Below, piece after piece: positions 38,867 to 42,790 of a stretch of 64,000 nucleotides of DNA (positions are counted from its first letter, which is position 1; each line of letters begins with the position of its first letter). The translations under genes were made by a program, and so were the position numbers. The notes under the pieces are model-generated. The model worked only from the letters and a program-made list of their open reading frames with translations, had not been told where the DNA came from and searched no databases. Source of the stretch: Ignavibacteriota bacterium. Lineage in GTDB: Bacteria; Bacteroidota; Ignavibacteria; UBA10030. The DNA is taken from assembly GCA_022616555.1 (NCBI GenBank), contig JAKEEG010000049.1, forward strand, positions 1-64,000, written 5' to 3'.

Positions 38867-40021
38867 ATGCCCATCATCGAATCCGTCGCATCGAAATTCA
38901 AAGAATTGTTTCGCGAGACGCCGCTGTTGGTGCGCTCGCCCGGCCGCGTAAACCTGATCGGCGAGCATACGGACTATAACGATGGCTACGTTCTGCCCGC
39001 GGCAATCGATGAGGCGATGTATTTTGCCATCGCGCCGAACGGAGGGAACGAGTGTCGCGTGCACGCGCTCAATCTGAATGCCGAGCACCGTTTTACCATC
39101 GGGCACGCGAATCACTCCGATAAGCGCTGGCCCAACTACCTGATGGGCGTTGTTGAACAGTTCAACAATGCCGGTTATCGCGTGGGCGGATTCAATTGTG
39201 TCTTCGGCGGCGATATTCCCATCGGCGCTGGGATGTCGTCCTCCGCTGCGTTGGAAACAGGGCTCGCGTTCGCGTTGGATCGTTTGTTTGCCTTGAAGGT
39301 CGACGCCCTCGCACTGGTGAAGCTTGCGCAGAAAGCCGAGAACGAATTTGTCGGTGTGGAGTGCGGCATCATGGACCAGTACATCAACATCTTCGGCAAG
39401 CGCGGCAACGCGCTGCGCATCGATTGCCGGACGCTGGAATCCGAGCTCGTGTCCTTCCACCATCCCGCGGCGATTGTGCTGTTCGATGCGGGCGTCTCGC
39501 ATTCCCTTGCCGGCTCCGGGTACAATAAACGCCGCGTTGAATGCTCCGCCGGTGTTGCCGCCGTAAAACAGAAACACCCGGCGGTAACGCATTTGCGGGA
39601 CGTCAGCATTGCCATGCTGAGCGGCTGCAAGGGTTTGATGGATGCCACTGTATATCGGCGCTCCAAATACGTCGTTGAAGAAAATGACCGGGTGTTTGCC
39701 GCTTGCGCGGCGCTGGCGCGGAACGACCTCACTGCGTTCGGTGCCCTGCTGTATGCTTCGCACGAAGGCTTGAGCCGCGAATACGAAGTGAGCTGCGCAG
39801 AACTCGATGTCCTTGTCGATGTTGTCCGTGAAATGCCCGGCGTGTATGGTGCGCGGATGATGGGCGGCGGTTTTGGGGGCTGCACGATTAATTTGATACA
39901 ACCTGATGCTGTTGAGCTTGTGAGCACGGCTGTGCGCAAGCAATACGCGAAGAAGTTCGGACGCGAACCGAAGGTGTACGTTACGTCCATTAGCGATGGG
40001 ACTAGCATTGTCGTACCCTGA
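38867..40021 (+). CDS. galK: Galactokinase
   Basis: Phosphorylates galactose to galactose-1-phosphate, the first step of the Leloir pathway; cytoplasmic GHMP kinase, 384 residues (normal). Motifs: VRSPGRVNLIGEHTDYNDGYVLPAAID (galactokinase signature), PIGAGMSSSAALETGLAFAL (ATP-binding GHMP motif), CGIMDQYINIFG with the catalytic Asp, and GARMMGGGFGGCTINLI (C-terminal GHMP motif). No Shine-Dalgarno is visible: the palindrome at 38838-38857 and the tail CTACAATCC lead directly to ATG. galT lies 1.47 kb downstream, beyond a repeat island, on the same strand. Confidence 0.96.
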   Translation: MPIIESVASKFKELFRETPLLVRSPGRVNLIGEHTDYNDGYVLPAAIDEAMYFAIAPNGGNECRVHALNLNAEHRFTIGHANHSDKRWPNYLMGVVEQFNNAGYRVGGFNCVFGGDIPIGAGMSSSAALETGLAFALDRLFALKVDALALVKLAQKAENEFVGVECGIMDQYINIFGKRGNALRIDCRTLESELVSFHHPAAIVLFDAGVSHSLAGSGYNKRRVECSAGVAAVKQKHPAVTHLRDVSIAMLSGCKGLMDATVYRRSKYVVEENDRVFAACAALARNDLTAFGALLYASHEGLSREYEVSCAELDVLVDVVREMPGVYGARMMGGGFGGCTINLIQPDAVELVSTAVRKQYAKKFGREPKVYVTSISDGTSIVVP

Positions 40022-40331: not shown

Positions 40332-40521
40332 TAAAAAAAGAAGCACACCCACTCTTTACGTCACAAAGGATCATCGTTTTATATAGCAGAAGGGCAACAC
40401 CACCTAGCCACTCCTCGGAGAGGAGGGGGGACGCGTCAGCGAGTGATTTCGATATGTTTTTGTTTTGTCTTTTCTTCTATCTCCTAACTTCTTGCTTCTA
40501 AGTTCTGCCTTAAAAAAATAT

Positions 40522-40797
40522 CCTAACAGTGAAGGTGCTCCCGCGTGCCGGGCGGGACGTGCCTGTAGCGCTCAACCGGTACGGCTGTTTCGTCCGGTGG
40601 AGCCGTCTTTATTCAAAAGACGCATCAGCCCGTTTGGTACCCGCAGCACGGGCGACGAGGCACGAGGCTGAAATTTTTTCCTGGCTTTGAACAGCTTTGT
40701 GTGTTCAGCGAGACACCTTGGAGCCTTCTGCGGAGCGACCGCAGATACGCCTCGAACTTGTCGGGAGGCTGCCAAGGCCAGACACCTTCACGTTAGG
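40522..40797. ncRNA. ~276-bp structured element with terminal inverted repeats (unknown RNA or mobile element)
   Basis: The ends are inverted repeats (40522-40537 and 40783-40797, 15 of 16 matching: CCTAACAGTGAAGGTG with CACCTTCACGTTAGG). Inside are nested stems: CCTTGG/CCAAGG enclosing CTGCGG-AGCGA-CCGCAG and GCCTC/GAGGC; GAACA/TGTTC; GCCCGT/ACGGGC; GTCTTT-ATTC-AAAGAC; and GTGCC/GGCAC. On the minus strand the closing helix is followed by ATATTTTTTT, as at the 3' end of a terminated small RNA. No tmRNA, RNase P, SRP or 6S signature is present, and all frames are broken or short. It could be a structured RNA on the minus strand or a non-autonomous mobile element. Confidence 0.5.
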
Positions 40798-40815
40798 AGA
40801 ATGTGGATTCGCGCG

Positions 40816-40836: not shown

Positions 40837-40978
40837 ATTTCACGGATTTACGCGGATACGCATATTCTAAATGATCGTACGCGAGACAGCGCAGTGCAAT
40901 CATTCCAGGTGCATCTGCACGATTGTTGGATACTTGAGTTACAGCTGGTAACTTCGGGGCGATTTTGGGGTGTTTCTC

Positions 40979-41068: not shown

Positions 41069-41357
41069 AATTTTTCTTAATTTACTATAATGATTTCAAA
41101 ATGTCAAGTAAAAAATGCAGGGAATGTAAATTATTTTTGATGCACGAAACCCCTGTCGTTATTGGCTAAATTCATTTTACTTAATTTTTAAGTAGAAAAT
41201 TGATGGATTTGTTCGATTTTTCGTCAATTTTATAAAACCCCCGATACATAGGTGTTTTATGGTTTTAAAAAAATGAATTTTTCTGTATCACAGAAAATAC
41301 CCGTCTGGAGGGGTTTTTCTGAGGCATCGATTTCGTGCCCGTTTGGAAGGGGTTTTT
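41069..41357. other. AT-rich intergenic block before galT
   Basis: About 290 bases, markedly AT-rich compared with the rest of the window up to about 41290. No gene, RNA or clear promoter can be supported. It may be a remnant or a regulatory spacer for galT. Confidence 0.4.
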
Positions 41358-41491: not shown

Positions 41492-42547
41492 ATGACCACC
41501 GAACCACATCCCTTATCCCAATACCCACACCGGCGGAAGAATATCCTGACGGGCGAGTGGGTGATGGTGTCGCCGCACAGGACGGGGCGGCCCTGGCAAG
41601 GGGAGATCTCCCTGCCTGAAAGTGACCGCAGGCTAGCGTACGACCCGCAGTGCTATCTTTGTCCGGGGAACACACGCGCGGGCGGGCATGTGAATCCCCA
41701 CTACGAAAGCACGTATGTGTTCACGAACGATTTCTCTGCGCTCGCTGAGGACGCGCCAGCATATAAAGAGTCGGGCGGAGGGTTATTCAATGCCCGCACG
41801 GAGCGGGGGATTTGTCGGGTGGTGAATTTCTCTCCCCGCCACGATTTGACGCTGGCGGAGATGAAAGAGCGGGACATCGAGAAGGTCATAGCCGTATGGC
41901 AGGAGGAGTACGGCGCGCTTGGGGCAAAGCCGCACATCAACTATGTACAGATATTTGAGAACAAGGGCGCGATGATGGGTAATAGCAATCCCCATCCACA
42001 CGGGCAGATCTGGGCGCAGGAGAATATCCCCGGCGAGCCGGCAAAAGAGCTGAGGCAATTCGCCGCGTACTATAAAAGAAAGAAGCGCAGTCTGCTTGCC
42101 GATTATCTCAAAGCTGAGTTGGAAGCGGGCGAGCGCGTAGTCTATGAAAACGCCTCGTTCGCGGTGGTAGTGCCGTACTGGGCGGTGTGGCCTTTTGAGA
42201 CGCTGTTGATTTCCAAGAGGCGGGTTGGGGACATTGTGCGATTTACGCCGGAGGAGTCGAAAGATTTTGCCAACGCGCTTTCGGTGCTGACGGTAAAGTA
42301 CGATAATGTGTTCAAGACGTCGTTCCCGTATTCGGCGGGCATGCATCAGGCTCCGACGGACGGGAAGAAACATCCGGAGTGGCATTTCCATATGCATTTC
42401 TATCCGCCGCTGTTGCGTTCGGCGCGTGTGCGGAAGTTTATGGTGGGGTACGAGATGTTGGCGGAACCACAGCGGGATGTGACTCCCGAATGGAGCGCGA
42501 AGATGTTGAGAGAATTGCCGGGGGTGCATTATAAGGCTGGTTCTTGA
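41492..42547 (+). CDS. galT: Galactose-1-phosphate uridylyltransferase
   Basis: Exchanges UMP between UDP-glucose and galactose-1-phosphate (Leloir pathway); cytoplasmic, 351 residues. The N-terminal PHRRKNILTGEWVMVSPHRTGRPWQG and zinc-binding YLCPGNTRAGG are typical of GalT class I, and the active site SNPHPHGQIWA has the nucleophile His170 of the HPH motif (His168-Pro-His170). EWHFHMHFYPP is the C-terminal metal site. It partners galK, though 1.47 kb of repeats separate them; galE is not in the window. The 177-bp repeat lies on each side (40037-40213 and 42580-42742). Confidence 0.96.
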   Translation: MTTEPHPLSQYPHRRKNILTGEWVMVSPHRTGRPWQGEISLPESDRRLAYDPQCYLCPGNTRAGGHVNPHYESTYVFTNDFSALAEDAPAYKESGGGLFNARTERGICRVVNFSPRHDLTLAEMKERDIEKVIAVWQEEYGALGAKPHINYVQIFENKGAMMGNSNPHPHGQIWAQENIPGEPAKELRQFAAYYKRKKRSLLADYLKAELEAGERVVYENASFAVVVPYWAVWPFETLLISKRRVGDIVRFTPEESKDFANALSVLTVKYDNVFKTSFPYSAGMHQAPTDGKKHPEWHFHMHFYPPLLRSARVRKFMVGYEMLAEPQRDVTPEWSAKMLRELPGVHYKAGS

Positions 42548-42579: not shown

Positions 42580-42742
42580 TTACTTTCTTTCCGAGAAAGA
42601 AAGTAACAAAGAAATCTTTCCGAAATCGAAACGCACGCTCATGGCTTCCCAATGCATGAGCCAGATTTCAGCCTCTGAAAAACGAGGCTGAAATCAAACT
42701 CACGCCATGAGCTTGTCCGCCCGCATCCGCCGTCGATTTCGG
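42580..42742. repeat. 163-bp dispersed repeat, copy 2 (after galT)
   Basis: Same opening block as copy 1 (40037-40213), then a different middle with a longer hairpin (GATTTCAGCCT ... AGGCTGAAATC), closing with the same TCGATTTCGG at 42733-42742. The variable middle between constant ends is the notable feature. Confidence 0.85.
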
Positions 42743-42790
42743 TTTGCCTGCGCGCACAAGAAAATAGAGAAGACCTACAAAGAATAAGTT

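Follow-up and report, generated by a model that had tools for sequence, protein, structure and literature searches.

A probable family of structured RNA genes, with at least 27 copies, in the genome of an Ignavibacteriota bacterium

Introduction

The window analysed here, a stretch of 64,000 nucleotides (positions 1 to 64,000 of contig JAKEEG010000049.1, assembly GCA_022616555.1), carries between two plus-strand genes, which we take from their translations to be galK (38867-40021) and galT (41492-42547), a densely folded element closed by inverted repeats. An earlier, sequence-only reading considered it the best candidate in the window for an undescribed RNA or element, the minus-strand end resembling the 3' end of a small RNA, and the terminal repeats fitting a mobile element equally well. 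The question raised by the locus is whether it is the gene of a structured RNA, a mobile repeat, or a cis-acting part of a neighbouring gene.

The window element

The limits first proposed for the element, 40522-40797, were right to within one base (Table 1). Its terminal repeats, TCCTAACGTGAAGGTG and CACCTTCACtGTTAGGA, which had been described as 15 bp long and perfect-looking, are indeed present, but they are near-perfect, forming 16 pairs with one bulged base. The terminal helix encloses a three-way 5' domain, P3, a multibranched P4 domain and a 3' hairpin. That many nested stems exist is borne out by the suggested comparison of folding energy with shuffled controls: the minus-strand core folds at -127.2 kcal/mol, against -97.3 +/- 5.0 kcal/mol for dinucleotide shuffles (z = -6.0), and none of the 200 shuffles equals it; with the flanks added, the z-score is -6.25. 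The plus strand also folds strongly (z = -4.9), and good folding of both strands is what a chance fold of GC-rich intergenic DNA would give; this explanation is nevertheless refuted by the z-score of -6, the 27 copies described below, and covariation far above that of shuffles and slid controls. The absence of a reading frame was likewise correctly noted, as none is kept across the copies of the RNA family; a protein-coding reading was rejected, since most copies have stops in all frames. An open antisense frame occurs in most type E copies, and the type D copies are without it. Where the earlier account erred was in taking approximately 276 bp as the whole element, since the full unit, of which this stretch forms just the core, spans some 620 nt or more.

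Table 1. Features of the window copy (window coordinates) and the copies of types A and B
Feature	Position or copies	Strand	Remarks
-35 element TTGACA, predicted promoter	41102..41107	minus	TTGACA-N17-TAAATT
-10 element TAAATT, predicted promoter	41079..41084	minus	
Leader motif AAAATCGCCCC	40956..40966	minus	common to copies C6, C18, C35 and C78
Leader palindrome module ATGATTGCAC...CGATCATTTAGAAT...ATCCGCGTAAATC	40843..40905	minus	precedes many copies; also elsewhere in the genome
Structured core, type A	40521..40798	minus	one of 5 type A copies in the genome
Terminal helix, 5' arm TCCTAACGTGAAGGTG	40783..40798	minus	arm differs among copies with compensation
Terminal helix, 3' arm CACCTTCACTGTTAGGA	40521..40537	minus	
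Purine-rich heptad tail, ending in ACATATCG (40450-40457)	40450..40520	minus	
Type A copies	C1 (= window), C11, C83, C35, C85		BLAST
Type B copies	C60, C78		BLAST

A family of five types in two clans

The source genome contains at least 27 copies, a lower bound in that the copies were listed by targeted searches, and these fall into five sequence types (A, 5 copies; B, 2; C, 1; D, 11; E, 8) and two clans (A/B/C and D/E). BLAST within the genome found seven copies, five of type A and two of type B, which have in common mainly their first 75 nt, the 3' hairpin and the ends. Type C was found at C18 via a covariance model of the 5' domain, C6, of type D, was reached through a leader repeat, and type E was found at C26 and C43 via a pattern for the common ends (TTAGGA N45-75 ATATCG); BLAST with E and D then gave 8 and 11 copies, respectively. 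Contig C31 (125,326 bases) is counted once among the D copies: its matches are paired at p and 125327-p, which suggests an inverted duplication, probably introduced during assembly. The D covariance model recovers all of the D copies and 8/8 E copies at 34-49 bits, and D and E are thus homologous. By contrast, the A/B and D models found no cross-clan match above noise; homology of the two clans was rejected, their context being common to both without detectable homology.

Cores of approximately 175-420 nt are closed by a helix, with the boundaries TCCTAA...TTAGGA. A leader of about 80-410 nt separates the -10 element from the core, and a purine-rich heptad tail, ending near ACATAYCG (often as ACATATCG, ACATACCG or similar), follows most copies, in all five types. 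At C91:9323-9333 (L112), a promoter and the leader motif AAAATCGCCCCC are followed by a hairpin without a known core, possibly a further relative or an empty unit.

All of the copies lie between protein genes, in mixed orientation. This is one of several observations that suit the main rival to an RNA gene family, namely, a non-autonomous selfish element, one whose core, alone or with its promoter and tail, would be mobilized in trans, and whose fold would serve its own mobility, whether as RNA or as single-stranded DNA. High copy number together with mixed orientation is, moreover, the published criterion for 'mobile/repeat sequence candidates' (PMC11109978); the terminal inverted repeats have a fixed boundary, the genome is rich in other palindromic repeats, and among its genes is at least one for an IS200-like (Y1) transposase, which lies 0.67 kb away from copy C60. 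Set against this, inspection of the A and B copies revealed no evident target-site duplication, and there is no consistent transposase neighbour.

Covariation and the RNA strand

Base-pair changes were counted, using RNAalifold and pair counting, in alignments of 8 type E and 10 type D sequences. In type E, 13 of 49 pairs are changed on both sides, with 99% of cells paired and 19 double-changed cells against 5.0 in shuffles; in type D, the corresponding figures are 13 of 45 pairs, and 31 cells against 9.6. For both types, sliding the partners by 1-3 columns abolishes the pairing. The strand is indicated by cells that can pair on one strand only, G.U on the RNA strand and A.C on its complement: these stand at 30:3 in E and 57:8 in D, and this large excess of G.U identifies the functional molecule as RNA, in the window RNA of the minus strand. 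A hand alignment of A, B and C gives 13:1 and 15 double-changed pairs, a weaker count on account of the manual alignment. Type A by itself has only three both-sided changes, such that the case for its structure leans on the hand-aligned B and C sequences and, by analogy of context, on D and E. Selection on RNA structure is, thus, shown by sequence for D and E, and by hand alignment for A/B/C, albeit as judged from paralogs of one species, which gene conversion can homogenize. With respect to the selfish element, the G.U bias argues for selection on RNA as opposed to single-stranded DNA.

Predicted transcription units

A near-consensus sigma70-like promoter (TTGACA or close to it, a spacer of 16-18 nt, and TATATT, TAAATT or similar) lies upstream of every copy, and when the best upstream site of each strand is compared, the RNA strand has the stronger one in 25 of the 27, the other two being ties; such placement of promoters also speaks against the selfish-element explanation. 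Together with the G.U bias, the promoter on the same strand upholds the original choice of the minus strand in the window. The promoter regions hold 78 TGTAA/TTACA boxes, where 18.4 are expected from shuffled promoter regions; this enrichment suggests co-regulation, although the AT-rich character of promoter DNA could lie behind part of it.

The promoter of the window copy is the top-scoring site of its intergenic region, transcription would be expected to start near 41072, and from there to the end of the tail the unit measures approximately 620 nt. Its leader motif, AAAATCGCCCC, has 12 matches in the genome, five of them at family copies, against one for a control pattern. The U-run TATTTTTTT that follows the minus-strand helix, and had been read as a 3' terminator, is real in the window, but in other copies it is replaced (for example, by ATATGAAAGC or ATATTAAAGC), and it is therefore not a conserved terminator; indeed, no conserved terminator was found among the copies. 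The window transcript could end at a terminator-like hairpin located at 40063-40037 on the minus strand.

Some of the copies are followed by a same-strand gene, for instance dnaG at C11, as would be required of a cis-acting leader, attenuator or giant terminator of the neighbouring gene. However, the window copy runs tail-to-tail into galK, the genes downstream of other copies occupy both strands, and the U-run is not conserved; the orientations in particular render a cis-acting role unlikely, and we consider it very improbable.

Reassortment of leaders, cores and tails

Similarity between leaders and similarity between cores disagree among the copies. One leader class (C11, C83, C85, C60 and C49) is found with A, B and D cores; C6 (type D) and C78 (type B) have 268 nt of leader in common at 79% identity, and C84 (E) and C64 (D) 121 nt at 88%. 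The reverse is also seen: the cores of C20/C87 and C43/C69 are 93-94% identical, yet the leaders cannot be aligned. From -244 up to the TCCTAAC boundary, C5 (E) and C71 (D) have homologous leaders, and at that boundary the core type switches. Tails are also common to different types, as in C5/C6 (87% over 47 nt). A further leader match, at C31:90256, was rejected, as it comprises just an ATCCGCG palindrome ahead of a protein gene. The conflict between leader, core and tail similarities implies that cores and expression contexts have been newly combined, either through recombination or through movement of the core.

These observations bear on two of the explanations. The mobile-element alternative gains in that reassortment suggests exchange, and near-identical cores in unrelated contexts are in keeping with a selfish element, but non-homologous cores are also found in one context, which transposition of the core alone leaves unexplained; given additionally that no target-site duplication was evident at the A and B copies and that no transposase is a consistent neighbour, we regard the selfish element as possible, but not probable. 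A second explanation is cassette exchange, whereby a limited set of promoter-leader-tail units has its cores swapped by dedicated recombination at TCCTAA/TTAGGA. The end of leader homology at the core boundary in C5/C71, the leader class with A, B or D cores and the common tails are all as this would predict; on the other hand, homologous recombination or gene conversion coupled with fast leader decay could look alike, the break falls exactly at the boundary only in C5/C71, which have two related core types, and no recombinase was identified. Dedicated exchange is accordingly a somewhat doubtful proposition.

Other repeats in the genome

Another palindromic element, of about 190 bp and likewise dispersed (CCGAAATCGA..GGCGG ... 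TTTCGATTTCGGAAAGATTTCTTTGTTACTTTCTTTCTCGGAAAGAAAGTAA), lies at 42580-42765 on the minus strand of the window, and also downstream of copies C1, C35, C6 and C26. A palindromic module of about 120 bp, GCAGATTTCACAGATTCC...CATTCAGAAT...ATCCGCGAAATCC, occurs at C23:32023, C68:6499, C90:33167 and C60:27306; it stands ahead of many copies and adjoins ordinary genes too. Degenerate purine heptad arrays (CAGAATTCAGGAGTCAG), resembling the tail of the RNA, are present at C97:2591, C60:26974, C63:34420 and C9:16644 (L026-L030), and several of these arrays are close to where protein genes end. An IS200-like (Y1) transposase gene of the RAYT kind, at L021:4818-5474, has the hairpin GGCGAGGATATATATCCTCGCC inside its frame; the hairpin recurs, with a CCTGCCTGCCGGTAGGCAGG palindrome nested in it, as an interruption of type A cores.

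Distribution

No match to Rfam 15 was obtained for the tested cores of types A-E, permissive thresholds included, the weak hits at L138/L139/L219 lying outside the cores. The type A sequence is absent from 99 relatives save for one short coding match: 45 nt (81%) of the 5' arm at L016:1500-1545 (genome G050), which we rejected as probably due to chance, as it lies inside what reads, on the opposite strand, as a dihydroorotase gene. The covariance search in other genomes that had been recommended found no homologues: the A/B 5' domain model has no match in 97 other genomes of the order, the D model none in 31 of the family, and the E model none in 394 of the phylum, and, in those 97 genomes of the order, the only match to the E sequence is one of 19 nt, attributable to chance. 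BLAST did not find the window copy in the plasmids or phages searched. A scan of 85,000 genomes with a pattern for the A/B core motif gave 28 matches, all unrelated; among viral contigs, the A/B pattern gave 0 matches and the E pattern 31, all attributable to chance or coding sequence. The genomes searched differ by type and include no other of the genus; among them, the family appears to be restricted to one, a narrow distribution that would also suit a selfish element.

A probable family of stand-alone RNA genes

With at least 27 copies, covariation in the two largest types and no match in Rfam, the designation 'undescribed RNA or element' was apt. We consider it probable, from these sequence comparisons, that the window core belongs, on its minus strand, to a multigene family of stand-alone structured RNA genes that is undescribed and restricted to one species, with at least 27 paralogous members. 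These genes would be expressed together via a regulator of the common TGTAA/TTACA boxes, unless strong AT-rich promoters simply resemble each other. The RNAs would presumably act in trans, the folded core offering conserved unpaired motifs (for example, ACACGACG, or UAUUUGUCGUCAACU in type D) to a common partner, and new combinations would arise when recombination at the conserved boundaries swaps cores behind existing promoters. We would only tentatively go further, to a system of interchangeable structured RNA cassettes in which unrelated cores are exchanged at fixed boundaries inside co-regulated units; if true, this would constitute a rapidly diversifying repertoire of approximately 27 abundant structured RNAs in one bacterium. 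Should the genes be expressed, they would represent a new class of RNA, or two, missed by databases through confinement to one lineage. Direct tests of structure, partner binding and exchange are made possible by the 27 natural variants, from which one would also learn the speed at which such RNAs can arise, spread and reassort.

Comparison with known systems

In bacteria, it is rare for complex structured RNAs to form large families whose members have promoters of their own, and we know of no family with two unrelated core folds behind common promoters and boundaries. In being folded and of comparable size, the cores resemble HEARO/omega RNAs, group II introns, retron RNAs, tmRNA, RNase P, SRP and 6S RNAs, several of which are associated with mobile elements, but they differ in matching no Rfam 15 model. 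The REP elements of IS200-like (RAYT) transposases are palindromes of 20-40 bp with GTAG or similar, whereas here both the unit and its core are far larger, with a multibranched fold. Bacterial palindromic elements and MITEs of the ERIC/RU, Nezha and QMITE type are similarly short, strongly folding repeats that lie between genes and end in inverted repeats (PMC2229807, PMC5896051); in the present family, the types keep structure, not sequence, with compensatory change, different cores occupy one transcription frame, and no target duplication was seen at the A and B copies.

Closer parallels are offered by two further systems. MRSC-65-2 is also a structured motif with many copies per genome, inconsistent orientation and covariation, but it consists of one long stem and is spread over diverse phyla (PMC11109978), whereas the cores described here are complex, have upstream promoters and occur in one genome among those searched. 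FopS of Bacteroides thetaiotaomicron comprises 14 paralogous sRNA genes, scattered and mostly with their own promoters, that have one common structure (PMC11697453). The present family is similar in that its 27 copies are paralogous non-coding genes, scattered over one genome, each with its own predicted promoter on the RNA strand. The FopS RNAs, however, are approximately 65-70 nt long and conserved across the Bacteroidaceae (PMC11697453), and the core of the FopS R1' consensus has no match in the window with up to 3 mismatches allowed; the cores reported here, by comparison, are multibranched, about 175-420 nt long, of two unrelated clans and seen in just one genome. In size, in fold and in the reassortment of promoters with cores, the family is, thus, distinct from both FopS and the mobile/repeat sequence candidates.
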